From Takashimella koratensis (Eukaryota; Basidiomycota; Tremellomycetes; Trichosporonales; Tetragoniomycetaceae), in NCBI GenBank assembly GCA_003116875.1, contig BCKT01000006.1, forward strand, positions 310,001 to 374,000: DNA of 64,000 nucleotides, read 5' to 3'. Shown piece after piece: positions 20,955 to 37,012 of the stretch; position 1 is the first letter of the stretch; each line of letters opens with the position of its first letter. Made by a program: the position numbers and the translations under genes. A model generated the notes under the pieces. That model was given only the letters and a program-made list of their open reading frames with translations. It did not search any database and was not told the origin of the DNA.

Positions 20955-21419
20955 CTATCTCGATCTTGTCCCGGGGTCCAAGATTAGGTAACTCCTCTGT
21001 CCGTACCGCTCAAGAGGTAAGCGTACCCTATCACCTGTATCATTGGCCATATCTAGATACTCATCACCAGCGATTATTCCAACTTCAGAAAGCCGAGCTC
21101 TTGAGAGCAAGTAGAACTTCAACGATTGGACAAAGTAAATTCGCTTAAGAGTGAGCTCTAGCCACCCATGATGAGGCTTGTCGATTTCCACGACAGCTTT
21201 CAAACTCCCTACTTCCTTACTCTGGATCAAAGAACCGTCCATCTGTGAGAATGACCGTTGACAGGTACGAATCAAAGTCAAAAGGTCTCGACCCCCAATG
21301 GGATGCGCGGGGGATAAATTGCTGATGATAATTCCAGTGTTGTCGTTCAAAGGCGGGAGAGAAGCCCGATTGATCACGACGACGATAATAATAGGTATGG
21401 AGAAGCCTAAGGAGGTCAT
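20955..21419 (-). CDS. array copy 1: inactive Copia-retropepsin-like protein
   Basis: Single-exon frame of 154 residues from the ATG at 21419. It follows the array pattern: SLPPLNDNTGIIIS, then ISNLSPAHPIGG in place of the aspartic-protease site, VGSLKAVVEI, LKRIYFVQSLKFYLLSRARL and VRLPLERYGQRSYLILDPG. By alignment on the conserved His, the catalytic Asp position is Ser. It is the most diverged copy with an intact frame, and its N-terminal 20 residues are hydrophobic (IPIIIVVVI). A TATA-like TTTATAT lies at 21752-21758, rather far upstream. Function unknown; the family assignment comes from comparison with the other copies. Confidence 0.6.
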   Translation of the reverse strand: MTSLGFSIPIIIVVVINRASLPPLNDNTGIIISNLSPAHPIGGRDLLTLIRTCQRSFSQMDGSLIQSKEVGSLKAVVEIDKPHHGWLELTLKRIYFVQSLKFYLLSRARLSEVGIIAGDEYLDMANDTGDRVRLPLERYGQRSYLILDPGTRSR

Positions 21420-21752
21420 AGTTGAGCAACTAAATCTATAACGTCGGAAGGGTGTCGTTCGACAGGTGTAAAAATTACTTGGTAGTTGGTAGTTGATAGT
21501 TGGCGGCGAGAAGATAAGGTCATAAAGCTGTGGGCTGAGGCCTTTGCGAGCATCCACCACCGAGAGAGATCGACAGCAAACTTGTTTCACAAAGACTTGC
21601 ACCCCTTGGTTCTCAATTTCACATGTTCACTTGACTCTGCCATTATTCTCACGAGGAGCAACAGCCTTTACGACAAACATTTTCGATGAGACAACGAGCA
21701 AGAGACCAGCTTACGAATATCAGTTGCCCAATGAAGAGGAAGAAGAGGATCT

Positions 21753-22479
21753 TTATATGAATCTTTCTCTTCTTCTGTTTGTCCGGCTGGATAAGAAACC
21801 CATACATCGACCTGCTCTTGCCCAAACTGATCCTTGTAAACCTGACACGGAAAATGTATGTAAAAAACGATTTATCCGCTGCGACCCTTCAATCCTCTCC
21901 TTCACTCCCGTGTCACTTTTCACTCTCCCTGCTCCCCTCGGCTGTCGTCCGCGTGACCGCCTGTACAATCGTCCGAGTGAAGGGTCAGTGGTGTCAGGTC
22001 GAGTGAGCCGATCTGGAACTCGTCGTGGGCCGCTGGCGGGCATTGACGAACAAGGCGCTGCCGTGCGTTTCCAGTGAAACGCGGACACGGTTGGAATCTC
22101 GAAGTCGGAGGTAGGGAGCACTTTCCGGGGCAGTCGGGGTGATGACTTGGATTCACGTTTCTTGGAGAGGACGCTGACGATCACATGAGGAAGGACGAAC
22201 ACATTGTCGATGTCCACAGGGATGCGAGAATCTGAGTTCGGCTTGGATACCCAGGCTCTGATAGTGCCAAATTCTTTGCTCTGGGAAATCATGCCGATGA
22301 AGTCTTTGAATTTTTTTTTGGCATGATTGGGTCGTATGACCTAGGACCCACTTGTCGGTCTCAGTCACAAAGTGGTCGGTCGCGTGATCCATGATGAGAA
22401 AGCGAGTGCAGCCGTCCGAGGGGATGAAGTCGGGAACGAAGCAGCCAGTGAACCCCGTACTCTCGAAGACAGTCGTCAT
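21753..22479 (-). pseudogene. array copy 2: frameshifted at a homopolymer
   Basis: The frame opens at ATG 22479 with the array signature (TGFTGCFVPDFIPSDG, then RFLIMDHATDHFVTE). It then leaves the family frame at a run of nine A (minus strand; T run at 22311-22319). The adjacent frame continues the family pattern exactly (SKEFGTIRAWV, DNVFVLPHVIVSVLS), so a one-base length change in the run separates the halves. The C-terminal PLE-YG-YLN block is not recognisable. The active-site position is Met. A TATA-like box lies at 22666-22674. This could be a real pseudogene or a sequencing error in the homopolymer. Confidence 0.7.
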
Positions 22480-22604
22480 GATCTCGTAGTTCTTGGAATT
22501 GCCGGTCGTAGAACGATTCGCGGTGACTGCGGTATTGACTGTGGCTACAGTGTGCAGGTACGTTTGTTGGTGGGAACGCTAGTCGCTAAGAAGGGGTGAG
22601 ACTT

Positions 22605-23062
22605 GGTCACTTGAGAGAAGAGGAGAAAGAGAAAGTGTAGGGAGTGAATCTGGAGGGGAAGGGAGATTATATAGCTGCGAGTGGGTGGGGACATTACTCA
22701 ACGTCCAGGGGCAAGTGGAGTACCTTTCCTTGGTGCTCATGTTCAGCTGTTTGCTGCGGCCTTCGACTTGGCCGACGCCGATATTGGACTAGTGGCACCT
22801 GTTCAGTGCAGGCAGGTGGGCAGAGCAAAACGTCAGAGCCTCACCACAAGCGCCGCGCCCACTGGCCAAGCTGTCTATTGCAAATGTTTGCTCATAAAGG
22901 AGAGAACAACTGCTGGGATATGACTAATGCACTTGTATGACGAATGAAGTGTATAAGCATGTACATTTGCTGATTTGCAATCGGCCTTCCACCTGTGCTA
23001 TGCACTGCCAGTAGTCAGTGCCCTATCTCTGCAAGGGAAAGAGCGCCTAAGCGCCTGGACTG
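22605..23062. repeat. intergenic module R1, copy a
   Basis: Starts with a GAGAGAAGAGGAGAAAGAGA stretch and the TATA-like box, then runs through the blocks GTGGCACCTGTTCAGTGCAG, CCAAGCTGTCTATTGCAAAT and TGATTTGCAATCGGCC. The same blocks occur in the same order at 31300-31765 and, more diverged, at 29930-30235. The module is promoter plus spacer DNA duplicated along with the array genes. Confidence 0.85.
22666..22674 (-). promoter_or_regulatory. TATA-like box of copy 2
   Basis: CTATATAAT on the minus strand, about 190 nt upstream of the copy 2 ATG, just inside repeat module R1. Confidence 0.5.
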
Positions 23063-23547
23063 GCACTAGTGCAAATGAAGGTCTGAGACGGCTTTTCAAA
23101 AGCAGCAGCTCCAACATGAGCAAGCAAACCCTTTGCGGCGGACCTCGCAACAAATGCCACTTCGCCTGGTGTACTGTACTGAAGGCTATCTCCCCGCAAC
23201 TTTTCGCCGAGCTTCCTATCAACCAAGCCCTCCCCACAGTCTTGGGAAAGCACGTTGAAGTTTGCATCGGGGATCACGTACGTGTCATTAAGGCAGACCT
23301 TGACCGTACAGTCTGACTCTAGTGCATCCATTAGAAGATACAGGTGCATGGTTGCAATTGCAGTGCTTTTGACGACGTAACCAAACAGAAGTAGGAAAGA
23401 TTTCACTTCGACGGAGGAGCTGGTGGGCAGAAGAAATGAAGTATCGTTGACCATGTGGTGAGTCGCTTTAAAATTGATGACGAACCGGTCCGAAGGGATT
23501 AAACCAGGAGTGAAGACGCCGCCAAGGTACCCGGCAGAGGACGTCAT
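23047..23547 (-). CDS. array copy 3: Copia-retropepsin-like protein with replaced C-terminus
   Basis: A 166-residue frame from ATG 23547. The N-terminus matches the array (AGYLGGVFTPGLIPSD, INFKATHHMVND) and the active-site position is Asn. The second core motif is recognisable (VKVCLNDTYVIPDANFNVLS). After this the family C-terminus is missing; the last 50 or so residues are read from intergenic module R2, whose antisense is also open near 31740. The protein is therefore likely truncated or chimeric. No TATA-like box is obvious upstream. It is an intact frame but may be decaying. Confidence 0.5.
   Translation of the reverse strand: MTSSAGYLGGVFTPGLIPSDRFVINFKATHHMVNDTSFLLPTSSSVEVKSFLLLFGYVVKSTAIATMHLYLLMDALESDCTVKVCLNDTYVIPDANFNVLSQDCGEGLVDRKLGEKLRGDSLQYSTPGEVAFVARSAAKGLLAHVGAAAFEKPSQTFICTSASPGA
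23064..23172. repeat. intergenic module R2, copy a
   Basis: Contains AGCAGCTCCAACATGAGCAA, also found at 25178-25265 and, modified, at 31728-31830. Here the module runs into the 3' end of array copy 3 and supplies its C-terminal codons. Confidence 0.85.
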
Positions 23548-24235
23548 GAGGATCAGATCGTGCGACCGAAGGGACGTGGTAGTAGGGTAGAGGTGTCCTG
23601 TGGCAGTATCAGTTATCGAGGGGCCGGTGCCGACGTGTGTTGACTTTATCGGTCGTGTGCCTAACCAGGGTACTTGGTTGGGTACAGGAAGAGGGTGCAG
23701 AACGGGGAATCGAGTGGAAAATGAGGGGAGAACAAAGTGTCTTGAGGAGAGCGGTAAGATGTTAGATCAAACCACTGGCTTTCCACCTATACTCATACAC
23801 AGGCGCACCATCGCTCCGTTGTGTTCAGAGCTGGCTCTTTCCTTCAAGCTTTTCTGCTTATCCAGCCTGAACGACGACCTATGAGGCCGTGCATGCGTGC
23901 GTTGTTGGAAACAAAGTAGGATTCTTGGCCTTCGCACTACACCCACCACCGTCTCTTCTGCAGCTGGGGAGCGGGCCCAGATTAGGGCTCTCGCTTGCCC
24001 ACATAGTGTTCTATCCGTACTTATTGCTAGATTTTAGGCAAGGCGCTTTCTGTCAACTTAAATGATGCATCGCCATTGACATATACTACACATTACTTCT
24101 ACCTTGCATCCTCCTCCTTCCTTACTTGCTTCTCACCGTTCCACTCTGCCCTCTGAATTCGACAATCGCCTTCTGTCTGTCTTGGCGTCGATCAGTTGAA
24201 GATCACGTTGCCTCGCCGGAGGGAATCTTCTACTC
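23548..24235. other. spacer between array copies 3 and 4
   Basis: No additional family copy, other gene or R1/R2/R3 module is recognisable in these roughly 690 bases. Confidence 0.4.
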
Positions 24236-24685
24236 CTACTCCTTCTTGCCAATGTTAAGATATGAGACTTTCTCAATGATATCTAGAGGCCACCTTGCAC
24301 GATTCGCCGTCAAAATGTATCCACGGGGTTCACCGTCTGGTTGCGCCTCGTACACGATTTGAGCCCCCATTTCCCGTAGCCGAATTTCAGAAAGCGCATT
24401 GCGTTTGGCAGAAGGGATGAAGTGTACCCCGTCTACGCTTCCGTTGACCGCGGACGATCCAACGTACGAAGGTATCGAGAAGTTCAAAGACCCGATGGTA
24501 GTGCATAGGAAAGAGCGATTTGAAGAGTCTTGGAGCGTCTTTGAGCACGATTGCGTCGAACTCAAAAGGCTTTCATCGTTGATAACATGTTCGGTCACCC
24601 CCTTAGTAAGTTGGAAGCGAATGTTACCATCTGACAAAATAGATTCAGCGGTCTTAGCGCTGGATGCTTGAGAAGTGGAAGCCAT
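24236..24685 (-). CDS. array copy 4: inactive Copia-retropepsin-like protein
   Basis: 149 residues from ATG 24685, chosen because a strong TATA-like box (24787-24797) lies about 105 nt upstream. Family blocks in order: ESILSDGNIRFQLTKG, TEHVINDESLL, TIGSLNFSIPS, VDGVHFIPSAKRNALSEIRL and a C-terminus ending VSYLNIG. The active-site position is Thr. The same frame stays open upstream without a stop into copy 5 (to 25621), so a two-domain product of about 460 residues could be read, but no ATG exists for it. Function unknown. Confidence 0.65.
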   Translation of the reverse strand: MASTSQASSAKTAESILSDGNIRFQLTKGVTEHVINDESLLSSTQSCSKTLQDSSNRSFLCTTIGSLNFSIPSYVGSSAVNGSVDGVHFIPSAKRNALSEIRLREMGAQIVYEAQPDGEPRGYILTANRARWPLDIIEKVSYLNIGKKE

Positions 24686-24786
24686 TGCTGAGTCTCTGTT
24701 GATGCACTCTCTCCGTTTGACTGAGCAGGTGAATGTAGTGTTGAAGTGAAGATGTGGTGAGAGCGTTGGAGGGCGAAAGAGAGGGC

Positions 24787-24797
24787 GATATATATAG
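24787..24797 (-). promoter_or_regulatory. TATA-like box of copy 4
   Basis: ACTATATATAT on the minus strand, about 105 nt upstream of the copy 4 ATG. Confidence 0.6.
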
Positions 24798-24948
24798 TAT
24801 CGTCGAGTCATGGTTGGAGTCACGGAGGCAATCAAAAGTCCAAGGATATCTTGAAGTCGCTTTGCTGCTCCTTTGCAACGATGTGCACCCGATTTGTTGC
24901 CGATTTCAAACATGAGAGAAAGGACGACAACTTCAAAGGAGTTATGTG

Positions 24949-25165
24949 GAAGCCCCAAGCCTTCAACTCTCTCGCCAACTTTGTCGTCAGAAGAAACATC
25001 GGCAGTATCTCGGTCGCGCACTGCTCTCGGACCCAAATCGGAAAAAATACAAGGGATAGTTTGAATATCCCAAGCCTTCAACTCGTCGCCAACGGTGTCG
25101 TCAAAGGAAACATGGCAGCAGCTCGGGTGCGCATTGCTCCCGGACCCAAAGCAGCGAAGGGACTG
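24949..25165. repeat. 113-bp tandem repeat R3 (two units)
   Basis: Two diverged units begin at 24949 and 25062, each starting near CCCAAGCCTTCAACTC and ending in GGACCCAAA. Related single fragments occur near 28785-28850 and 28915-28960. They lie between array copies and read open in one minus frame only by chance. Confidence 0.8.
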
Positions 25166-25177
25166 CTCAAAAGGAAT

Positions 25178-25265
25178 CGGCACTAGTGCAAATGAAGGTC
25201 TCATAGAGCCTTTCAAAAAGCAGCAGCTCCAACATGAGCAAGCAGTACCGTCCACGGTTGCGGGA
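25178..25265. repeat. intergenic module R2, copy b
   Basis: Nearly identical to 23064-23145 over GCACTAGTGCAAATGAAGGT and AGCAGCTCCAACATGAGCAA. It sits directly 3' of array copy 5 and replaces its C-terminal coding end, as at copy 3. Confidence 0.85.
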
Positions 25266-25621
25266 GGGATGATGCTGATTTCTGCTTCTACGAGTCGTTT
25301 TTCTGACAGTATGTTGAACTTGAGCCTAGTGAGGTAATACACCCTGTCAATGCAGACCCGGTCAATAGACGAGCGGGGTGATTTGGAGATCAATGAGCCG
25401 ACCATTGACTCCGTCTCCTCACCGATGAAATTGACACCGGCGGCATCGATGAGCTCCTCCCGTTCGCACGACGAGACAGAGCTTATAAGCTCTCGGTTCC
25501 CTACAAGGTGTTCAGTCGATACAACGCTGATGCGAAACCAAACATTGTGCTCAGAATCAGAGAAGGCGGAAATGACTCCACATGCGGTCCAAATCCAATG
25601 TATATTGTTAGGTTTCTTCAC
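25240..25621 (-). pseudogene. array copy 5: missing start and C-terminus
   Basis: The family core is clear (WFRISVVSTEHLVGNREL, SMVGSLISK, IDRVYYLTRLKFNILSEKRL) and the active-site position is Ser. There is no in-frame ATG before the upstream stop near 25665, unless an unrecognised 5' exon exists. The usual PLE-YG-YLN-GP end is absent, because the frame passes into modules R2 and R3 and then into copy 4. A TATA-like box at 25829-25837 suggests it was once transcribed on its own. I treat it as a degraded copy. Confidence 0.6.
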
Positions 25622-25828
25622 TCGATCTGGGGAATCCTTCGCTCGACGCTCTACAGACTGCTATCTATCCCTCTGTCACTCTCTCCTCAGCTCCCCCTGG
25701 CCGTGTCTCAGTCCCATGCTACCCCTGGTGGCGTTGGACCTGCGCCACCCCGCTCGGGTCGCTCTCGTCACTCGAGGTACTTCGGTACCGCACGGATCGC
25801 CTCCGCAGTCCTCGGCCGTAATATCTGA

Positions 25829-25837
25829 CATATATAG
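25829..25837 (-). promoter_or_regulatory. TATA-like box of copy 5
   Basis: CTATATATG on the minus strand, upstream of array copy 5. Confidence 0.4.
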
Positions 25838-26325
25838 CCTCAAACGAAGAGGAAGAGGACATGGTGTTGTGCTTGAGAGCTAGACGTTGTTGATAAGAAA
25901 GAAGTGAGTTGAAGGAGTTTCGTTAATGAGCGAGGGCTAACACAGATACAGTGTGAACAGCATATAGAAGACGGGGAATGTTGACTGGTTCCAGCATTAA
26001 CCGTTGTGTTTCATCTCCCAGCTCTCTGACTCGGCTCCTTAGTACTCGGTTCTCTCGCGGGTTTCACCAGTAGTCCCAGCTCTGTCGACAACTTTGCGTT
26101 TCAGTATGTCAGTTCTTTTGTAAGCAAAATCCAGATTTGGACGTTTCAGAGGGGCAAATAGTGGGGAACAAAGGACTACATCTAAGCCTTGATGTTCAAT
26201 CCATCCGTGAGAGGGATGTCCCCCGCTCAAGTCAAAATCAATCCCAATAGTAGTTGGTAGCTGCCAGAGATCGCTCTCCCCCCTCCCACCGTCCGATGAT
26301 CAAATCTCACAAGCCTCACTCGGCT
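25838..26325. other. spacer between array copies 5 and 6
   Basis: No convincing gene. A 63-residue minus frame at 26039-26230 has a faint resemblance to the middle of copy 1 but not enough to call. Confidence 0.35.
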
Positions 26326-26883
26326 TCAGCAGGCGCTGGTTGTCGGCGTTGACCTCGGCGTTGACGACTCCAGCTCTGTCGAGAGCGCCCATGCTTCACT
26401 CGAGCGCCTAGGGCCAATATTGAGATACCATTGGCCGCCATAGGCTTCCATGGGCAAACATACGTCTTTTGAAACCTGTACGTCAGCCCTACCCCCCTGT
26501 CCAGCAGGAGGGATGATGTGTATGTCCATCTCGGCGAGCTTCACAGCGGAGAGAATATTGTATTTCAGCGAAGGAATGTAGTAGACCTCATCGAGTTTAA
26601 TTGTGGTTGTAGCAGATTCTCTCGATCCGGGCAAGCGTGAAGAGCTGTTCAGCACCAATGCCTGGATAGATCCAACATGGGTACTATCAATCAAATCTCC
26701 CGTAAAAGTTATGAAGGTTTGTTTCTTCGATGATAGTGTTGATGGCTCCAAAAGGCTCCACTCACCGATAACGTGTACTGATGGCCCGTTGCTGATCAGA
26801 AAACGGACATCATTGTCTGAAGGGGGAATAGATTCGAGCCTGAGTAGACCTCCGAGGTAAATAGGTTCAGACGAAGAATCCAT
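26326..26883 (-). CDS. array copy 6: inactive Copia-retropepsin-like protein
   Basis: 185 residues from ATG 26883. One of the best-preserved members: IYLGGLLRLESIPPSD, VRFLISNGPSVHVIGEWSLL, STHVGSIQALVL, IKLDEVYYIPSLKYNILSAV, KLAEMDIHIIPP, LPMEAYGGQWYLNIGPR, then a Ser/Thr-rich tail of about 25 residues. The active-site Asp position is Ser. A TATA-like GTTATATG at 27043-27050 lies 160 nt upstream, directly beside a run of 17 G. The DEVYYIPSLKYNILS block is the part most like the DVLYVP-NLLS segment of Copia Pol. Confidence 0.75.
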   Translation of the reverse strand: MDSSSEPIYLGGLLRLESIPPSDNDVRFLISNGPSVHVIGEWSLLEPSTLSSKKQTFITFTGDLIDSTHVGSIQALVLNSSSRLPGSRESATTTIKLDEVYYIPSLKYNILSAVKLAEMDIHIIPPAGQGGRADVQVSKDVCLPMEAYGGQWYLNIGPRRSSEAWALSTELESSTPRSTPTTSAC

Positions 26884-27024
26884 GCTTGTGTCACCTCTGA
26901 TCAGGGATGTGGTTGGTGGCGTCGTCAACGAGACAGTCGCGAGGTCGAAATTGTCGTGTTTGGATATGCCAGTTCAAGGTGCCAAGCCTCTTGTTGGAAA
27001 GTAGAGTAAAAACTGTAGTGAGTT

Positions 27025-27041
27025 GGGGGGGGGGGGGGGGG
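27025..27041. repeat. homopolymer of 17 G
   Basis: A run of 17 G on the plus strand immediately precedes the TATA-like sequence of array copy 6. The length may be uncertain for sequencing reasons. Confidence 0.8.
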
Positions 27042-27042
27042 C

Positions 27043-27050
27043 GTTATATG
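27043..27050 (-). promoter_or_regulatory. TATA-like box of copy 6
   Basis: CATATAAC on the minus strand, about 160 nt upstream of the copy 6 ATG. Confidence 0.5.
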
Positions 27051-27584
27051 CTGGGCAATGAGCTTGAGCATACAGCAGTACTCGTTTTGCTCCCATATCC
27101 TAAACAAACTCCACGGCATCACCTTTCACAAACTCGCTCATGCTCCCGTTCGGCATCTAATCATGGGCTTGCCCGGTCTTTTGTCTTTGGTCTGCATGAT
27201 CTTCAATGGAATATTCAGCAGCATCTCGGAGTCAAAACCGAACTCGGCATCAGAGAGTGTTGGGCCATAGCGGTCAGGTTAAAAACAAGTATACAGTGTG
27301 CTCAGCGGTGAGTGGAAGCATTCAACGCGGGTCTGCCCGCAGCAGTTGACGTTGAGGCCAGGCAAGGAATCCAACAGAGACTACTCGGCTATGCACCAGA
27401 AATGTGGCTGGGAGGAAGGTAGGAGACGCATGGACAGCAGGTCCCCGTGCCCCTTTAAATCAGTGCATCGTCCCAAAATTGTCATGAAAACCCCTGCCCC
27501 AGATGATTCTGCCCCCTCCCACCACGTTTTTGACCTCTCCACATTCTACCGATATTCCATTTCTGCACGTGTGGATGTTGGTGC
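27051..27584. other. spacer between array copies 6 and 7
   Basis: No gene recognised in about 530 bases. Confidence 0.4.
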
Positions 27585-28070
27585 TCACTGCTTCGAGCTC
27601 TCCGGTTCAGTCTTGAGTGTGGTGAGCTGACTGAGCTTGAGATACGGCATTCCGTTGATTGCCTCCAGGGGCATCTTCACACCCTCGGGGGTCTCAATGT
27701 ATGAGTTAACCCCGGGACTGCTGCCAAATTCCACCTTCATCCCGGCACTTTCTAGCGCAGATTGGGAAAGCACATTGGCTCTTGACTTGGGGGTAAAGTA
27801 CACCTCTTGCACGCATACTAGAACCGTGTCCGTGCCCGACCCGCTGGGCAAGGCGAACTCAAGAGATCCAACCATGGTGCTTCCACAAGTATTTCCAAAC
27901 GTATCAAAGAAAACTCGGCTGCAGGACGAGGTCTTGGTCAAAAGCGTCTCATCATTAACGATGTGTTTTGGTGTCCCCGTGCTGATAAGAAATCGGATAT
28001 TGCCATCTGAGGGGAGAGACTGGGATCCGAAAGCGGTCCCGACAAACGTTGACTTAGGCAAAGGAGTCAT
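27585..28070 (-). CDS. array copy 7: inactive Copia-retropepsin-like protein
   Basis: 161 residues from ATG 28070. It is the cleanest match to the Copia Pol beta-barrel segment: LPSDGNIRFLISTGTPKHIV, NDETLL, MVGSLEFALPSGSG, VQEVYFTPKSRANVLSQSAL, ESAGMKVEFG, GVKMPLEAINGMPYLKLS. Alignment on the conserved His puts Ser at the catalytic Asp position, within STG instead of DSG. A TATA-like box (28513-28522) lies about 440 nt upstream, and a GTGAGT donor on the minus strand near 28350 suggests a 5' UTR intron. The frame upstream of the ATG stays open without a clear family match. Function unknown. Confidence 0.75.
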   Translation of the reverse strand: MTPLPKSTFVGTAFGSQSLPSDGNIRFLISTGTPKHIVNDETLLTKTSSCSRVFFDTFGNTCGSTMVGSLEFALPSGSGTDTVLVCVQEVYFTPKSRANVLSQSALESAGMKVEFGSSPGVNSYIETPEGVKMPLEAINGMPYLKLSQLTTLKTEPESSKQ

Positions 28071-28512
28071 GGTTGCACCTCCTCGTCCTCCTGCATCTTG
28101 GCCATGGGTGCATCGGTCCTGCTTGCCTGGGCAGGGCGGAAACATGCAGCTATGAAACTTATGGAACGCTGTGACACACACACAAAGTAACGGACTACAA
28201 AAACTACGAGAGAGAAGGGAGAGGGATCTACATGTAGGGCGGGCGGGAGGTCTTTTCAGCCCAGGATGGTCCTCAGAGGGTCTTGGATGAGCGATGGTGC
28301 AATGGAGGGATGCTAGATCCTCTACAGTGCACTCTTCTCTCGTTCGACTACTCACGTGACCATCCAAGCGTTGCTGGTCGACTGCATTCTGTCTTGGCGA
28401 GCGTTGAACGTGTAGGTGAAGTGGTAAGATTGCCGTTGTTGAAATGAGGCTTGTCAGCGTGAATGCCGGTTTGGATAACAAAGAGCAAGAGGCTTAGAGC
28501 TGGGGTGATGTG

Positions 28513-28522
28513 TTTATATAGC
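28513..28522 (-). promoter_or_regulatory. TATA-like box of copy 7
   Basis: GCTATATAAA on the minus strand, about 440 nt upstream of the copy 7 ATG. Confidence 0.5.
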
Positions 28523-29321
28523 TCAAAGGCTAGAGTAAGCCAGTACGATAGTCTAGCGTAGACGAGCATGTCGAACAGACTCCGTGAGGTTCCTTTCTGT
28601 GTTTGTGTTTTGCAATACCTCCACTTTGTACGTCATAGTCAATGGAAGTCAAGGCTTTCTCTCGGGAGCGTATGTATCTGAACTCGATCTCAGATTTGAA
28701 CCACAAAGGTGACCTATATAACAAGGGTGATCGCGAACATCGAGGTAGAATACATGTATGTTGATGGCCGGACCATAAGTGAGTGTTGTCGTCAAAAGAA
28801 ACCCCGGCAGCAGCTCCGGCGCGCATTGCTCCCAGACCCAAAATGGCAAAAAANAAAAAAAAAAAAAAAAAAACAGTCGAAAGAAATGAACCCGACTCCT
28901 TAAGTTTTTGACGCTCTCGTCAACGTCATTGTCAAAAGAAACTCGTGAGCAGCTCGGTAGCGGTTTGAACACGGCTTCAAACAATTGTGAGAGGCCGCCT
29001 CGTAGCCTAAGTAATCGGAACACAGGTATGCACCCAAAATATCGGGGAAGGAGGGAGGGAATCACGTTGAGGGGATGGTAGGGGGCAGAAGATTACAAAG
29101 TAGTGGGGGAAGGAGCAAAGATGTTGAGGCTAGCGAAAATAGTCCTCAACAAATCCTAATGTGAGCATCGTACTGGCAGAGAGAAGTCATTTCGCGGGAT
29201 ATTTTCCATCAATCCTGGCTCAATACATTCTCGTAAGCTGTAATATGAATAACACCTCCCCTCCCCCTCCCGCATCTCCTGCTTTATGCCCTGAAAGCTT
29301 GTCTCTGTCCCTCCTCCGCGC
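28523..29321. other. spacer with R3 fragments and ambiguous poly-A
   Basis: Holds single R3-type fragments near 28785-28850 and 28915-28960, and a poly-A run (28850-28873) containing one N at about 28854. No gene recognised. Confidence 0.5.
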
Positions 29322-29966
29322 TCACAATTCTCGAGGTCGCCGTGTGTTCTGAGCCTTGCTGGCGCTCATGTCGGTGTCTGCATCGTCGATCCGAAAGCGA
29401 GCTGATCTCGACTCCATGCTCCCTGAGTCGACGTCTCTTGGTGGGAGCGGACCGATATTGAGGTAATGACCGTCGCCATACGTCTCCAGAGGTACTCACA
29501 CGTCAAATTTGCCGATCTCGAGGTAGTAGGTGTTGTCGGGTGTGACGCTGTGGACGAGATGAGCGCCCATGCGAGCAAGTTGGTGCGTCGATAGGAGATT
29601 ATGAGGGCCATCGGGGATGTAGTCCACCTCCTTAAGGCTGATCGGAGTTACTCTCATTCCCTCGGGGGTGTGATCAGGCAGCACCGCGCGTATGGCGCCG
29701 ACGCTGGACTTGTGCGACCAATGACATGGGGCAGCCTCGGAACGGACGTCGACAGATCCCATCTCGCTGGTTGCTCATTGCATGGCCTCTGTGGTGTTTT
29801 CTAACACAGGTGATAGAAGCCAGATGGGATTGAGTGATCCAACATGGGAACTCCGGTATACCATGAACTTGTCGCCTTCGAGCTCGAGTACGTGAGTCTT
29901 GGGTGACTTCCCCCCGCAAGGGTCGCATAGTGGCACTTCCTCAGTGAAGGCAAGGGGGCAGAGCAA
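29322..29966 (-). pseudogene. array copy 8: 5'-truncated, frameshifted, in-frame TGA
   Basis: The N-terminal GG-LPSD and active-site segments are absent. Recognisable parts are a RSSHVGSLNPIWLLSPV block in one frame, then in another frame SSVGAIRAVL, LKEVDYIPDGPHNLLSTHQL and ARMGAHLV. The family frame then meets TGA (29498-29496) exactly where other copies encode Arg or Lys before VPLE, and continues afterwards as VPLETYGDGHYLNIGPLPP to a stop at 29322. At least two lesions plus the missing 5' end make it a pseudogene. Confidence 0.75.
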
Positions 29967-30235
29967 ACGTCAAAGCCTCACAGCAAGCGTGTTTCGGACA
30001 AGCTGTCTTTTCCAAATATTCACACACAAAGGACCGAACAAAGGCTGGGGTATGACAAATGCAATTGCGTGACGCATGAGGTTGTGAACGAGGCTATTGC
30101 TTATTTGAAATAGGCCTTGCGGGCGCTCTGTACCGGCAGGGTCTGTATCCTGATTATCCAAGGGAAAGAGCATGTCCACCGACGGGAATGATATCAGTTT
30201 AGACGTTTTGTGAACATAGCAGCTTCAACGTGAGT
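29930..30235. repeat. intergenic module R1, copy b (diverged)
   Basis: Shares the order of blocks with 22792-23050 and 31483-31700: GTGGCACTTCCTCAGTGAAG, then CAGAGCAAACGTCAAAGCCT, a CAAGCTGTCTTTTCCAAAT block and an AAGGGAAAGAGC block. It lies upstream of copy 8 and overlaps the place where its N-terminal codons should be. Confidence 0.75.
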
Positions 30236-30511
30236 GAACGAGCCTATCGGTCGGGTCAGGCGCTCCGTACGAACACCTGGATGCGAGCCTCCCAACCAAT
30301 GCATTCTGGAGCAAGGTACTGTAGAACTCCCACCTCCCTATCCCTCCTCCCCTCCTCCCCTCCTCTCCCCTCACCTCGCCTTCTTTGTGTCGCAAACTCC
30401 CATACTGATGCAGTCTCCCCGCTGGTGCTGTTCAAGGCCGAAGACGGCGGGTGTCGCCCATCGTCGTCGAAACGCTGTGGTCCCCGCTGTTCACTTGGCG
30501 CCAGTCGAGAG

Positions 30512-31192
30512 CTAGTGGGACATGCCGTCCACCACTCCGATTTCGTCTTTCTTGAGAGGGGGCTTGCCGAAATTGAGGTACATGTCTCGGTTGTGGGCGA
30601 AGCGCTGGTCAAATTCAAGCTGGACGCGGACGCCTTCGGATTCGAAGGAAAGCCATGTGGGATCCTTGTCCGAGACTGGAATTCCCTGATCACGAAGCAG
30701 ATCCGTGGAGAAGTCGTTGATGTTGGACGAAGGGTTGCAGTACACATTCTGGAATCTGATGGGAGTGATGGTCATTTCCGCCGCCTCCTCTTTCGACGGC
30801 TGCCGGATGCGTATCACTCCGGTCTGGAAGTCAGGCGACTCGCAGGTAATGTTCTCGCCGGTTGACTTCCTGGGGTTCGAATCCTCGGGAGTGCCCGTCC
30901 CGTCGTTCGTGAAAGTCCCCTTGGTGGAATTACCCGTAGGCGTCTTGGGAACGAGTAACCAGGCAGCAAGGGTGCCGACATGGCTGCACTCGTGCTCGTA
31001 GCCGTAGCCGCTGTTAATTGTCTTCGTGGTATTCTCCGTGGGCGACTCCAGCAAAGTTTCATCATTCACGACATGATGCGAGATGTAGTCGTTGAGGAAG
31101 AAGCGCACGTTTCCGTCTTTCTTGGGCACATCAGTCGAGTCGAAAAATGTCGGTTGAAGGACAAGCGGCGTCGTTCCAGGATTCGATGACAT
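30512..31192 (-). CDS. array copy 9: Copia-retropepsin-like protein with long loop
   Basis: 226 residues from ATG 31192. Blocks: FFDSTDVPKKDGNVRFFLN, YISHHVVNDETLL, SHVGTLAAWLLVPKTP, then an insertion of about 55 residues absent from short copies (Thr/Asn/Glu-rich), then ITPIRFQNVYCNPSSNINDF, VRVQLEFDQRF and MYLNFGKPP. The active-site position is Asn. A TATA-like box at 31359-31367 lies about 170 nt upstream inside module R1. With copy 10 it forms a long-loop subgroup. Function unknown. Confidence 0.7.
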   Translation of the reverse strand: MSSNPGTTPLVLQPTFFDSTDVPKKDGNVRFFLNDYISHHVVNDETLLESPTENTTKTINSGYGYEHECSHVGTLAAWLLVPKTPTGNSTKGTFTNDGTGTPEDSNPRKSTGENITCESPDFQTGVIRIRQPSKEEAAEMTITPIRFQNVYCNPSSNINDFSTDLLRDQGIPVSDKDPTWLSFESEGVRVQLEFDQRFAHNRDMYLNFGKPPLKKDEIGVVDGMSH

Positions 31193-31299
31193 GATCGTAT
31201 CACTTGTCCCGTGTAGCAGTCGTGCTTAGGTCGGCCTAAGTTGTGTCGATTGTGAAAGTATGTGAGCGTATCTGGTGATTGGGTAGGGGGTAGGGTTGA

Positions 31300-31765
31300 G
31301 CAGCTTGAGAGAAGAGGAAAAGAGAAAGAGAAAGAAAAGGGAGGCTCGGGGAAGGGGGAATAAATAGCTCAGAGACTTTGGGGAGACTTATGGGCATGGA
31401 CATGCATGTCAAGCAACGCTCCTTGGTGCGCATGTTATCCATTCATTGCGGCTTTCGAAGTTGCCTCCCCCAGTAGTAGCTTGTGGCACCTGCTCAGTGA
31501 AGGCAGGTGGGCAGAGCAAAATGTCAGAGCTCACTGCAAGTGTCCACCGGCCAAGCTGTCTATTGCAAATGTTTACTCACAAAGGAGAGAATGACCAATG
31601 AGCTTGTATGACGCATGGAGTGAATGAGGATGTATACTGATTTGCAATCGGCCTCCAACCTGCGCTCTGAACTCGCAGGGTGAGTGTCCTATCCCTGCAA
31701 GTGAAAGAGCGCCTTTATCGGCGCCGGTGCAAATGGGGGTCTGAGATGTCATTTTGAAAACATCA
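31300..31765. repeat. intergenic module R1, copy c
   Basis: Contains the GAGAGAAGAGGAAAAGAGAA stretch, the TATA-like box of copy 9, then GTGGCACCTGCTCAGTGAAG, CCAAGCTGTCTATTGCAAAT and TGATTTGCAATCGGCCTCC. It is the closest match to the copy at 22605-23062. Confidence 0.85.
31359..31367 (-). promoter_or_regulatory. TATA-like box of copy 9
   Basis: CTATTTATT on the minus strand, about 170 nt upstream of the copy 9 ATG. It is followed by AGCTCAGAG on the plus strand, exactly as at copy 10. Confidence 0.55.
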
Positions 31766-31830
31766 GCTCCAACATGAGCAGACAACCCCTTTGCACTGGC
31801 CGCCCTCGTAACAAATGCATCTCCATCTGG
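31728..31830. repeat. intergenic module R2, copy c
   Basis: ATCAGCTCCAACATGAGCAG and its surroundings match 23064-23170; it adjoins R1 here as it does at copy a. Confidence 0.75.
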
Positions 31831-32033
31831 TGTATTGAACCTCCTCCACGCAACTCTAATCCTTCTTCCTGTCGACCCAACCTTCCGCACGATCGATGAG
31901 CCCTCGGATTGTCGCACAGTCTCTCCCTCTTTCTTGTCGGATGCCGAAGACTGCACGTGTCATTCATTGTTGTCGCACTGACCGTCGGCAACGCCGTTTG
32001 TTTGGTGTTGATCGAAAGTCAGTCGAATGTCGG

Positions 32034-32693
32034 TCACGTTGTCGAAGCCCCCGAGTTCGAATTCTGCGAGCGGATTGGGCCGATGTTGAGGTAAGGGCGA
32101 CCCCAATCGGTTTCACCTTGGTATTTCTCCAAGGGCACGCGCACCATTGCCGATTTGATGCAAAGGTACTCGCTTCTGTACCTCGGGAAGCATGGATCTC
32201 CGCGGGGATGGAAAAGCATCGTTGCCAGGATATTGTAGGGGAAGGACTCGGCGAGGTACACGCCGTGAATGTTGATTTCAGTGACCTCCATTCTTTCAGT
32301 GACTGCTCCCGTCGGGCGGTAGGGGTAGATGGATCCGATGGGGAAACTGTCGAAGTCGACGGGAGGAGGAGGAGCAGGGGGCACGCGAGCACGGTGACTT
32401 CGGAAACGACCGAAGAGGCTTGGTCTGGGTTCACTGGTGTTTGGAAGAGTACCCCACCACTCAATCGCAGTCCTCTTTTCGATGGCATTGGATTCGGGAG
32501 CAACTAGCCATAGCTGAACCGTTCCAACCGCGGTGGTCCGGACGTCCCTGCCCAACTCGTCTTCGATCGACCGTTCAACAATAACATATTGCTGAAAAAG
32601 TCTCTCGTCATTCACAACATGAAATGTCATGCCTCCGCTCAGAAAGAAACGACAGTGGCCAGCCTCGGAGGGGTAGGATTCGTCGAAAGACAT
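32034..32693 (-). CDS. array copy 10: Copia-retropepsin-like protein with long loop
   Basis: 219 residues from ATG 32693 (MSFDESYPSEAGHCRFFLS). Blocks: GGMTFHVVNDERLF, TAVGTVQLWLVAPES, a Pro/Arg-rich insertion of about 60 residues, ITEIN-like ITE replaced by VTEINIHGVYLAESFPYNIL, VRVPLEKYQGE, RPYLNIGPI. The active-site position is Ser. A TATA-like box at 32916-32924 lies about 225 nt upstream in the same local context as that of copy 9. It is close to copy 9 in architecture but the two are diverged in sequence. Function unknown. Confidence 0.7.
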   Translation of the reverse strand: MSFDESYPSEAGHCRFFLSGGMTFHVVNDERLFQQYVIVERSIEDELGRDVRTTAVGTVQLWLVAPESNAIEKRTAIEWWGTLPNTSEPRPSLFGRFRSHRARVPPAPPPPVDFDSFPIGSIYPYRPTGAVTERMEVTEINIHGVYLAESFPYNILATMLFHPRGDPCFPRYRSEYLCIKSAMVRVPLEKYQGETDWGRPYLNIGPIRSQNSNSGASTT

Positions 32694-32854
32694 CGGCTCG
32701 TGACGAAAGGGCTCTGTTCCGGACGAAGACGAGAGGCTGGTGAAATGTCCCTGGACGAGGCGTCGTGAAATGCGTTGGGGTAAGGCGTGGTGGTGGGGTA
32801 AGTGTATGGCTGTGTCGGTGTATTCGGATGCTGGTTCGCCAGGAGGGGCAGAAT

Positions 32855-32990
32855 CGGGCTGGTTGAGAGAAGAGGAAAAGAGAAAGAGCGGCAAGGGGGA
32901 CTTGGGGAAGGGGGAGTAAATAGCTCAGAGTCTTTGGGGGGATTCATGAGCATGGACATACATGTCAAGCAACGCTCCTTGGTGCCCCTA
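32855..32990. repeat. promoter part of module R1, copy d
   Basis: GAGAGAAGAGGAAAAGAGAA, a TAAATAGCTCAGAG block and CATGTCAAGCAACGCTCCTT are shared almost exactly with 31305-31430. The remainder of R1 is not recognisable here. Confidence 0.85.
32916..32924 (-). promoter_or_regulatory. TATA-like box of copy 10
   Basis: CTATTTAC on the minus strand within R1 copy d, about 225 nt upstream of the copy 10 ATG. Confidence 0.5.
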
Positions 32991-33170
32991 TTTCACATTC
33001 TTGATCCTCCTTTGACTAGGCTCATGTGAGTGGCACCTCAGCTTCACCTCAGCGGACGCGCCTAGCTTGACAAATGGACAGAATTTGTCTTCGATGTTTC
33101 TGTTCGGAGTAGGCCTAGAGGTCGAGGTGAGTTTTGAAAATGCCGCTCACAAAGGAGAGAGCTCCTCTCA

Positions 33171-33687
33171 TCAATGACCAATCGAGTCGCCTGGATCTGC
33201 GCGAGCCCGCCGGAATGGGTAGAGTCGTGACACACTCGGGACGTGGGCGAGGTTGAGGTGCCATGCACCTCCATGACACTCTAACAGCACCTGTACTTCC
33301 TCTGATATCTGCACATAGGCATGCCTCCCCGGATATGTGCAAACAAGTTCAACACCCATCTCGCTAAGACGGCGCAGAGAGAGATCGCAGCTAGCAAGAG
33401 AAGGGAGGAGATACACATTGTCCAGGCCGCCGTGGTGCCATGTCTCCTTCCAGCTCAGCTTGGAGGAAGACTTGTATCCAGCCATTCTGGGTACTTTTCA
33501 GAGATCCAGCAAGAGTCACGAATGTTTTTGCGCAATCGGAGTGCTCTTGCAGAAGACTGTAATCGCTCACAATGTGATCAGATACAGAGAAGTTAAGTAA
33601 AAATCCGACATCGTCCGACTTGAAACCAAAACTAGGGTGAAAGAGGAGACCAACGTAGCCAGAGTCCATTTGTTCGTCTGTGCGCAT
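33171..33687 (-). pseudogene. array copy 11: frameshifted
   Basis: ATG 33687 opens the family frame (SGYVGLLFHPSFGFKSDD, VGFLLNFSVSDHIVSDYSLL). The frame is lost between about 33490 and 33430: the first frame ends at 33391, while the second carries the rest of the family pattern (GLDNVYLLPSLASCDLSLRR, LSEMGVELV, VLLECHGGAWHLNLAHVP). The active-site position is Asn. No convincing intron fits the junction. A TATA-like box (33827-33835) is 140 nt upstream, so it may still be transcribed. Confidence 0.7.
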
Positions 33688-33826
33688 GCTGGTGTCTGAA
33701 GAGCATGGCGTGGGTGTGAGCCTGTCAGCTGAGAGGCGTGAAGGCTTTGCGCGTTGACTGTTTGGGTGATCTAGCTGGTATCAAGCTGTGACTGTTTACG
33801 TGGACGGTAGGCGGCCGCGGCTAGCT

Positions 33827-33835
33827 CATATATCG
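33827..33835 (-). promoter_or_regulatory. TATA-like box of copy 11
   Basis: CGATATATG on the minus strand, about 140 nt upstream of the copy 11 ATG. Confidence 0.45.
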
Positions 33836-34293
33836 ACAAGGCTTTGCATGCCATACGTGGGGATGATCACAGATACACCGAGAAGAGTTCGACATGAGGT
33901 CTCACACTCTCAAATTGTCTCGTCGCCTTCACCCTCGAATGCAGCCGCGAGAGCAATTCCCAAATCAAAGTCTCGGAGCAGCACAGCATCCAGCGACGAG
34001 GGTGGAAGAGTTTTCTTCTCACGAAGCGTTGGGCTCAAGTGTTTGACTCGTGAGAAATGGTGGATCTCAAAGGATCAAACAAACGATTGACTCAAGTCTC
34101 ATACATGGTAAATGCAGTTCGCATGCACCAAACGTCCAAATCTGTGCGCTATGTAGATCCATGCAGGTTGGGGGTGGGTGTACGTGGGATAAACTGGTTA
34201 TCGATCAGCCCAGACGACGGGATCCGGGCTGACATAGGCGTGATGCTCACCGTTCACTCGGCGTGGACAACCCGGAGCGGCAACCTTTGGTAG
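33836..34293. other. spacer between array copies 11 and 12
   Basis: No gene recognised; no clear R1-R3 block. Confidence 0.4.
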
Positions 34294-34791
34294 CTAACTT
34301 CGACTCCTTGCTTTGGCGTGCACCTTTTGTCGCGGACCGATATTGATAAAGAATGGATTCCCGTCGTACTCCTCCATATACAACTTGGCCCCTCCTGGAA
34401 TATCAAGACGTTTTGCTCCAAAGTCGACGTTGATCCCCATCTCTGCCAGCCGCATCGCCGAGAGCTGATTCCAGAAGACGTTGGGGACGACTTTTACCCT
34501 CTCGAGACGTAAGATCGTGCCCGCGCCGCCGGTGAGGGGGATATCAAGACATCCGACCTCGTGGGATACGTATTGGTTAGCGCGATTGTAGCCAACAAAC
34601 CGATTGGTGGTTGAGGAGAGGTGGTGTAACAGGTTTCGGTCCTTTACGATGTGTTCGGTGACCGCCGTTTGGATGAGGAAGTAGACATTGCCGTCGTCCG
34701 CAGGGAGAGGCTTGGCAATTCGGAGTCCCCCGATGAACCCAGTTTCCTCAGATCCAGGGTTCGCTCTCGGATTGGGTTGTCGTCTCGGCAT
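34294..34791 (-). CDS. array copy 12: inactive Copia-retropepsin-like protein
   Basis: 165 residues from ATG 34791. Blocks: TGFIGGLRIAKPLPADDGN, VYFLIQTAVTEHIVKDRNLL, HEVGCLDIPLTGGAGT, LRLERVKVVPNVFWNQLSAM, RLAEMGINVDFG, LDIPGGAKLYMEEYDGN and FFINIGPRQ. The active-site position is Gln. It has the GFIGG N-terminus and NQLS (instead of NILS) that also mark copies 13 and 14. A TATA-like ATAAAATAGG at 34870-34879 lies 80 nt upstream. Function unknown. Confidence 0.75.
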   Translation of the reverse strand: MPRRQPNPRANPGSEETGFIGGLRIAKPLPADDGNVYFLIQTAVTEHIVKDRNLLHHLSSTTNRFVGYNRANQYVSHEVGCLDIPLTGGAGTILRLERVKVVPNVFWNQLSAMRLAEMGINVDFGAKRLDIPGGAKLYMEEYDGNPFFINIGPRQKVHAKARSRS

Positions 34792-34869
34792 CAAGGGCAA
34801 TGACTGATCGTTCGCTATGGACAATCAGTCCAATGTCGACTGAGGACCGCTGCGGATAGCTCACAGAGG

Positions 34870-34879
34870 GATAAAATAG
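34870..34879 (-). promoter_or_regulatory. TATA-like box of copy 12
   Basis: CTATTTTAT on the minus strand, about 80 nt upstream of the copy 12 ATG. Confidence 0.45.
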
Positions 34880-34989
34880 GAAGTTGGCGGACAACGACCA
34901 AGACAAGCTAGGAGGAGGGTTAAATGACCGGAACGTGACACTGCTATGTCAAGTCCCCGAGATCACATTCATGCACATCTCATTCTTTT

Positions 34990-35260
34990 CTACATCCTGG
35001 TACACAATAAAGCCTGCCAAGAGCTCTCGGCGTACACTGCCTCTTCAAAGCTGGCACAGTCGGCTTCTTGTGGGGAAAGGGGCTCGATGTTGAGGGACTG
35101 GGGTTTCCTGAAAGTCGTTCCGTTGTGATCCCAAACGGCGTAGGATTCCAACGGGACTTTTACCCGTGCAGATGCGACACCTTAAACGACCAAACAGTGA
35201 GACAAAGATGAGCTCAGTCTCAAGGCGTAGAGCCATCGCCATGCGGAATTCTGAAAAGAG
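34990..35260 (-). pseudogene. array copy 15: C-terminal fragment
   Basis: A minus-strand frame reads RVKVPLESYAVWDHNGTTF and then PQSLNIEPLSPQEA to a TAG at 34992, matching the C-terminal block of copies 8 and 10 (VPLE-Y, then LNIGP). A short piece further upstream (LFSEFRMAMALRLETELIF, another frame) resembles the N-LS---L segment. No N-terminal half or start is present. It is a relic only, not previously apparent as an open frame of useful length. Confidence 0.55.
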
Positions 35261-35489
35261 TCAGTTGTTAGAGCACAGCTCGGACGTCAGGCGTTTACTT
35301 GAAGACAAAGGGTTGATCAAAGGACTGATCAAAGGGTCGATCGAGTCAAGATAAGCTATGTACTGCTCATACTGCGCTGGCTATCGAGTCATGTGCGCCT
35401 GGGGGGAAACCCGACGTAGTTAGGGAAGTCCACCGTTGAGGTGGGCTGCTCGTCGGGTTTGGGGTGGGTAGGGAGAGAGAGAGAGTGAG

Positions 35490-36026
35490 TTAACTACTAT
35501 CTATGGCCGCCGTTTGCCGCCCAGCTCGTTGACTATGGCTGCCATTTTGTCCTCGCGCTGCACTTATCTCTCGGGGCCCGATATTCAAACACGGCAACCC
35601 CGCAAACCTCTCCATCTGCGACCTCACACCTCCTGGTATCTCAAGGTACCCACACTTCTCTTCCTCCCACTCAAATACAACATGCACTCCCATCTCTTCC
35701 AGTCGGACAGGTGAAAGCTGGTTAAAATGGAGGGAAGGCACGACGTGAAGCCTTTCGAGTCGAAGCACCGTTCCGCCGCCGGATCCGGGTCCTGTCGTGG
35801 GTAGTGGAATATGAAGAGCGCCAACTTCGGTGCCGTGGTGTCGAAGGTCAAAGTAGGAGTGGAAGATCTTGTGGAACGGTAAAGGAGAGATTAGGAGAGT
35901 TCGGTCATAAACGACGTGCTCGGTTGTAGCGGTGCTGATGAGGAATCGGACATGGCCGTCGTCGATAGAGGGAAGGGCGTCGGTACGAACCATGCCGCCG
36001 ATGAACCCGGCACCGGACGATGCCAT
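35490..36026 (-). CDS. array copy 13: inactive Copia-retropepsin-like protein
   Basis: 178 residues from ATG 36026. Blocks: MASSGAGFIGGMVRTDALPS, VRFLISTATTEHVVYDRTLL, GTEVGALHIPLPTTGPGSGG, LRLERLHVVPSLHFNQLSPV, RLEEMGVHVVFEWEEEK, YLEIPGGVRSQMERFAGLPC and LNIGPREIS, then a basic Ser/Gln tail. The active-site position is Ser. A TATA-like ACATATATGG at 36233-36242 lies about 205 nt upstream. It is most similar to copy 14, its upstream neighbour. Function unknown. Confidence 0.78.
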   Translation of the reverse strand: MASSGAGFIGGMVRTDALPSIDDGHVRFLISTATTEHVVYDRTLLISPLPFHKIFHSYFDLRHHGTEVGALHIPLPTTGPGSGGGTVLRLERLHVVPSLHFNQLSPVRLEEMGVHVVFEWEEEKCGYLEIPGGVRSQMERFAGLPCLNIGPREISAARGQNGSHSQRAGRQTAAIDSS

Positions 36027-36232
36027 GGTGACGACGAACGACGATCCTTTTGGCGGCGGTTGCAGCTTGGATGAAACAAGAGAAATGGTAATCATTCTCA
36101 CCGGTTAAGTGGGCAGCGATCCGTTGCTCCGTTGCGTGGCAAAAGTTGTTCGACAGGACGAGAAGACAAACGACAACTCCAACCGCCTCCGGTAGAGGTC
36201 CTGAGTAGCCAGCCTTTCTTTCATGCATGCAT

Positions 36233-36242
36233 ACATATATGG
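36233..36242 (-). promoter_or_regulatory. TATA-like box of copy 13
   Basis: CCATATATGT on the minus strand, about 205 nt upstream of the copy 13 ATG. Confidence 0.5.
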
Positions 36243-36386
36243 CTTATCGAAAAGGAGGTCCAAGCACATAGAGGATGAAGTTTCGAGAGGGAAAAATATA
36301 TTTGGTAATATGGAAAAGGGGTGAAAAGTCAAGCGTCGACAGCTTCCTTCGCCTTCTGCTCGCTGCGGCTCTCGAACGAGTTGCGA

Positions 36387-36890
36387 TCACGACGTCGAGT
36401 TCTTAGGATCGGTCGAAATCTGTGGTCGTGGAGAGAGTTTGAACATCGGCAATCCATTGAACGTCTCCAACGGCAATCGAGCGCCACCGGGAATGTCAAG
36501 GTATCCAGCGCTTTTCATGTCTGGAGGGTAGATATGAACCTTGATCCCAGCGAGAGCGAGTTGGGCCGGAGACAGCTGGTTGTATCGTCACGAAGAGACG
36601 ACATACACCTTGTCGAGGCGGAGGGTGGTACCAGCGCCTGATCCGGACCCGGTCGTAGGAAGTGGAATGTGAAGACACCCTACTTCGGTGCTCTTGAGAG
36701 CCGGGGGGAAATAGGATTCGAAGCGTTTCTCGGATGACGAGAGGTCGTGGAGGAACGTTTGACTGTATACGACGTGTTCAGTCGTTGCAGAGCTGACGAG
36801 GAAACGAATGTAGTCGTCTCCATCAATCGAGGCAGGAAAATCGTGAGTGAAGAGGCCACCGATGAATCCCGGTGCGGACGAGGACGGCAT
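36387..36890 (-). pseudogene. array copy 14: full-length frame with one in-frame TGA
   Basis: ATG 36890 to stop 36387 is 168 codons in a single frame with one internal TGA at 36590-36588. Before it: PGFIGGLFTHDFPASIDGDD, IRFLVSSATTEHVVYSQTFL, TEVGCLHIPLPTTGSGSG, LRLDKVYVVSS. After it: RYNQLSPAQLALAGIKVHIY, YLDIPGGARLPLETFNGLPM, FKLSPR. Everything else is intact, so either the gene is newly dead or the TGA (followed by C) is read through. The active-site position is Ser. A TATA-like box (37013-37021) lies 123 nt upstream. Confidence 0.75.
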
Positions 36891-37012
36891 GGTGGGTGGG
36901 CTCAGTTTTGGTCGATTTGACTTGTTTCTCGCGTATCCTCGTTTGTCGCGACCGCTTCCGGAGAAAGGTAGAAAGTCATACGATAGCCCAAGCGACCTCG
37001 AGAAGCAAGGGC

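Follow-up and report, generated by a model that had tools for sequence, protein, structure and literature searches.

A tandem array of putatively domesticated, Copia-type pseudo-retropepsin genes in Takashimella koratensis

The array and the site of the catalytic aspartate

A stretch of Takashimella koratensis contig BCKT01000006.1 (64,000 nt, positions 310,001 to 374,000; hereafter the window) carries, on its minus strand between positions 20955 and 36890, 15 related copies of a short gene whose products resemble the retropepsin-like domain of Ty1/Copia Pol and in which, wherever the site could be read, the catalytic Asp is absent. By tblastn and frame translation we count eight open copies, six damaged ones and a single C-terminal remnant. 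This agrees with a preliminary description made from the sequence, which had listed about 15 copies on one strand, with eight intact frames, six damaged ones and a chimeric copy 3; the latter is probably our remnant. The genes are stand-alone, uninterrupted frames of about 150-225 codons, and the four ordered blocks of conservation attributed to them are visible in the alignment of the copies. When seven array frames were searched against the window (tblastn), the minus strand showed related copies between 36.9 and 20.97 kb, the exception inside the array being one weak plus-strand match (36856-36960, E 0.041); outside it there were three matches, two at 5.3-5.9 kb and a third at 59.1 kb, none with E below 0.5. 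Since the best 40 copy pairs score 83 to 282, far above the maximum of 53.5 reached in 200 codon-shuffled controls, the kinship of the copies goes beyond chance.

Pol_BBD (PF22936), the barrel of Ty1/Copia Pol, was the sole Pfam family with E < 0.1. Scanned singly, five of the eight intact copies match it (E 1.4e-4 to 0.013) and three do not, and none reaches the curated cut-off of 27 bits; at E ≤ 0.1 it was found in nine of 16 aligned rows, a set that included three Copia controls. Comparison by hhalign of ten array rows with the three rows from resident Copia elements gave a probability of 95.7% and a pairwise E of 9.5e-9 over 94 columns, and c3 is 20-22% identical to the resident domains. 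An AlphaFold2 (AF2) model of c3, built from array copies alone, has a predicted local distance difference test (pLDDT) of 83.5, and in structure it matches retropepsins, among them retroviral proteases and DDI1; the retropepsin domain of the latter, a host protein, is one of the closest solved folds. The predicted structure of c3 is thus the retropepsin barrel that had been proposed, and support is weaker for the divergent copy c6, whose model is of lower confidence. A search of solved structures by sequence returned three matches, none meaningful (best E 0.14). Pfam scans of ten array frames detected no second domain, integrase or RNase H, the last two not having been sought genome-wide with models.

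We read the site of the catalytic Asp from 13 array copies aligned with three Copia domains, this stretch being missing from c7 and the remnant. The column holds D, D and N in the Copia elements and Q, S, S, S, T, N, S, S, S, N, S, M and N in the array, that is, Asp in none of the 13 copies. In both intact copies with a Pfam match across the site, c3 and c8, the Pfam register agrees on its position. The Copia His six residues further on is kept in all 16 rows, hence in all 13 array copies; four of the 13 still have the Gly of the D-S-G triad and nine have lost it. As the catalytic Asp is lost in every testable copy, no cutting would be expected of these proteins as ordinary aspartic proteases. 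Judged from its sequences, the array family is one of pseudo-retropepsins, and this loss from every testable copy is what the alignment adds to the preliminary description. Active proteases relying on another acidic residue are very improbable: one candidate, an Asp four residues after the invariant His, is found in eight of the 13 copies, but the D-S-G turn does not include it, the other five copies lack it, and the triad Gly is mostly gone as well.

Layout of the locus and the resident Copia elements

The coordinates of the copies and of two related spacers are given in Table 1.

Table 1. Array copies and shared spacers in the window (positions as in the window; intact copies are open from ATG to stop)
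Feature	Position	Strand	Evidence and remarks
c1, damaged (one in-frame stop)	36390..36890	-	tblastn, frame translation; 57% amino acid (aa) identity to c2 over 97 codons
c2, intact, 178 aa	35490..36026	-	tblastn; no Pfam match alone
C-terminal remnant of a further copy	35030..35260	-	three-frame translation, by eye only
c3, intact, 165 aa from its ATG	34294..34791	-	Pol_BBD 22.1 bits; AF2 model; retropepsin matches
c4, damaged (frame change)	33171..33687	-	tblastn, frame translation
c5, intact, 219 aa, long insert	32034..32693	-	tblastn, alignment; no Pfam match alone
c5/c6 spacer	31304..31840		repeat comparison; 72% identical over 575 columns to c12/c13 spacer
c6, intact, 226 aa, long insert	30512..31192	-	tblastn, alignment, lower-confidence structure model; no Pfam match alone
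c7, damaged (one or more in-frame stops; N-terminal part unrecognisable)	29390..29880	-	tblastn, frame translation
c8, intact, 161 aa	27585..28070	-	Pol_BBD 22.6 bits
c9, intact, 185 aa	26326..26883	-	Pol_BBD 22.4 bits
c10, C-terminal part missing, shares one open frame with c11	25240..25621	-	tblastn
c11, intact, 149 aa	24236..24685	-	Pol_BBD 19.2 bits
c12, C-terminus replaced by spacer sequence	23047..23547	-	tblastn, spacer comparison
c12/c13 spacer, start overlaps end of c12 frame	22610..23179		repeat comparison
c13, damaged (frame change at A run)	22030..22479	-	tblastn, frame translation
c14, intact, 154 aa	20955..21419	-	Pol_BBD 16.2 bits

The genome comprises 25.1 Mb in 24 contigs, the window lying on contig C6. 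Whole-genome searches with c2, c9 and c6 returned at least 10, at least 13 and at least 7 matches, respectively, every one inside the array, and a 401-nt spacer piece searched in the same way matched within the array only. Profile searches placed RVT_2 and Retrotran_gag_2 in three places each, on contig C1 only, and Pol_BBD in these three and in four further places, all of the latter within the array; the six matches of RVT_1 are on contigs C1, C7, C19 and C24, none on C6. Comparison of direct repeats at the array recognised no pair of long terminal repeats (LTRs), the longest repeat there being the shared spacer. The combination of gag, reverse transcriptase and flanking LTRs that marks a Copia element is therefore not found at the array, as the preliminary description had held; its similar statement on integrase and RNase H stands for the ten frames scanned. 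Three Copia copies (L021, L022 and L023, on contig C1) were found in the 25 Mb. Since their flanking direct repeats, taken as LTRs, are 100, 99.0 and 97.8% identical, these copies are probably young, and the array is old by contrast. In one of the three, the catalytic Asp is replaced by N.

These searches bear on the origin of the copies. Real Copia elements exist in this genome and the array resembles Pol_BBD, and its members could on that account be fragments of several independent insertions. This is hardly credible and already contradicted, as all copies share one strand and one locus, the spacers are shared and the piece searched occurs there only, Asp is absent from all 13 testable copies, and gag, reverse transcriptase and a recognisable LTR pair are lacking. 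Nor do the copies look like mere pieces of elements located elsewhere, in keeping with the earlier claim, since the searches with c2, c9, c6 and Pol_BBD found no other genomic element with these sequences.

On the left the array is flanked by a frame for a DXD glycosyltransferase, confirmed by Pfam (Gly_transf_sug), and on the right by an exon at 39.1 kb that appears TMEM14-like by eye only. Both neighbours had been named before, and it is for the first that Pfam agrees.

Spacer pieces are 70-91% identical among themselves, and the upstream regions of c5 and c6 are 85% identical over 143 columns, against a 63% difference at their coding synonymous sites. Homogenisation and promoter constraint are candidate explanations for such likeness next to saturated genes. 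We rejected diversifying selection, suggested by spacers more alike than genes, because the synonymous sites are saturated too (proportion of synonymous differences, pS, 0.63 for c5/c6). A unit of about 50-85 nt is repeated in the spacers near c10/c11 and c7/c8 (24954-25150 and 28786-28852). Eight of 11 copies (c1, c5, c6, c8, c9, c11, c13 and c14) have a candidate TATA-like box 111-450 nt upstream of the start used in the scan, and none was found within 600 nt upstream of c2, c3 and c12. The box of c8 is 450 nt from its ATG, with a GTGAGT site in between (28070-28520, minus strand; by eye), and this copy may have a 5' exon.

Together with a 570-nt spacer, c10 and c11 form one uninterrupted frame of 461 codons (24236-25621, minus strand) with two Pol_BBD stretches and 30.8 bits, above the curated cut-off. 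The chance of the spacer frame being open is 0.00065 (20000 resamples), or about 1% over 13 spacers. A two-domain protein was not adopted, as c12 uses a different frame of the shared spacer piece (by eye); the joint frame is possibly a single-chain double barrel and more likely a coincidence.

Age of the copies and selection on their proteins

Among the best 40 copy pairs, protein identity is 29-57% and the synonymous difference 0.61-0.91, near or beyond saturation. A tree built from 11 copies had no strongly supported fork; the groups c1-c2-c3 and c8-c11 had moderate support and c5-c6-c12 weak support. We compared codon positions in four disjoint pairs, using a protein-guided alignment that somewhat favours positions 1 and 2, and found position 2 better kept than position 3 in three of them: c2/c3 (59 vs 17 discordant codons, p 1.4e-6), c8/c11 (53 vs 17, p 1.9e-5) and c9/c14 (63 vs 11, p 5e-10). 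The result for c5/c6 was not significant (52 vs 36, p 0.11). When 2000 frames were derived from c2 in a neutral simulation limited to substitutions, 0.15% of them were still open at 0.7 changes per site.

Eight frames thus stay open, and position 2 is kept in three of four pairs, despite saturated synonymous sites, which argues for long selection on the protein. These are open frames under selection outside any element. Selection as it acts on the protease of a mobile element is unlikely, because the Asp is gone from all testable copies, and selection probably acted after the departure of the gene from its element. The earlier suggestion that one Pol domain was domesticated and then amplified locally is consistent with the codon pattern and with a single locus, and a domesticated family of pseudo-retropepsins is, in our judgement, very probable.

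Could the array instead be a graveyard, the relics of a once useful or merely amplified family, with frames open by chance? Seven of the 15 copies are broken or partial, and c5/c6 carry no significant codon signal. We nevertheless consider such relics quite unlikely, given eight open frames at near-saturated synonymous divergence, the conservation of position 2 and the rarity of open frames in the neutral simulation.

A possible role in binding and comparison with known systems

We propose that a host gene arose from the protease domain (retropepsin, Pol_BBD) of a retrotransposon of the Copia type, and that it would have been tandemly amplified at one locus long ago and kept by selection. Because the copies retain the predicted barrel and the Copia His but have lost the Asp, the proteins would most likely act by binding. 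An active retropepsin is a dimer, in which each half supplies one catalytic Asp. Trans-dominant interference would therefore be the best-fitting form of binding: an Asp-less half that still pairs could poison the protease of an incoming Copia element, or it could occupy the Gag-Pol target of the Copia protease. An Asp-less dimer could still bind peptides, and several diverged versions may meet several targets. The statement as a whole, a domesticated, tandemly amplified, Asp-less Copia-protease family acting by interference with Copia, strikes us as nearly balanced, tilting slightly towards the negative. Interference with Copia, taken alone as the role, is somewhat doubtful, and its most specific form, a tandem repertoire of Asp-less subunits poisoning retrotransposon protease dimers, with each paralogue directed against a different Copia lineage, is unlikely.

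The same pseudo-retropepsin family might instead have a host function unrelated to Copia. Its members could, for instance, be scaffolds of protein turnover that bind peptides or dimerise, with different partners for different paralogues. The loss of Asp, the predicted barrel and the strong divergence between copies would suit such a scaffold, as would the distance of c3 from the resident Copia domains and the presence of a host protein, DDI1, among the closest solved folds; the scanned frames, which contain no second Pfam domain, speak against it. We regard this as tenable, although short of probable.

We looked for relatives of the array among known proteins. None of 2870 candidates reached E ≤ 0.01 in a search with the array alignment, and none of 78 reached E ≤ 10 with c9 alone; this method needs shared five-residue words, and unannotated relatives may exist in poorly sampled fungi. 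In a control search, a flanking oxidoreductase retrieved 611 proteins from the 7998 candidates scored; the species named in the 120 rows listed are fungi (Penicillium, Cryptococcus, Vanrija and others), so fungi are represented among the proteins searched. Among the matches listed none was above 63% identity, so close relatives may be missing from the proteins searched. In the literature, no fungal array derived from a Copia protease was found among the matches listed.

The array and the Pol_BBD barrel of Ty1/Copia Pol have in common the extent of the barrel, conserved blocks and the His of D-S-G-A-x-x-H. Unlike Copia Pol_BBD, the array consists of stand-alone frames in tandem, its Asp is lost in all 13 testable copies and c3 is far from the resident elements in sequence. 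The retropepsin domain of DDI1, which keeps its catalytic Asp, and the protease of PEG10 share with the array a retropepsin fold in host genes; neither is known to be Copia-type or to occur in tandem arrays. The PEG10 protease is retrotransposon-derived and likewise keeps the catalytic Asp, with an Asp-Ser-Gly motif (PMC7212762).

There are known cases of retrotransposon pieces, derived from capsid, that hold related elements in check. DRT2 of Saccharomyces is a domesticated Ty1' gag (capsid C-terminal domain, relic 2 locus) that restricts Ty1' retromobility (PMC10951436); it is a piece of a Ty1-type element turned fungal host gene, as the array would be, and it differs in deriving from capsid, not protease. 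The p22 of Ty1 is a trans-dominant inhibitor (PMC4599808), a parallel to the trans-dominant negative logic proposed here by means of an element fragment, and neither p22 nor DRT2 is known to use the protease. A multicopy family derived from protease would be a different solution, and it opens a direct question, whether pseudo-retropepsins block the maturation of Copia elements. If the poisoning of protease dimers proved true, this would be an antitransposon system built from the Pol protease. The family would also add a tandem-array case to the pseudoenzymes. A domesticated retrotransposon gene is known in kind; the one described here appears, from its sequence, to be protease-derived, catalytically dead and arranged as a tandem array.
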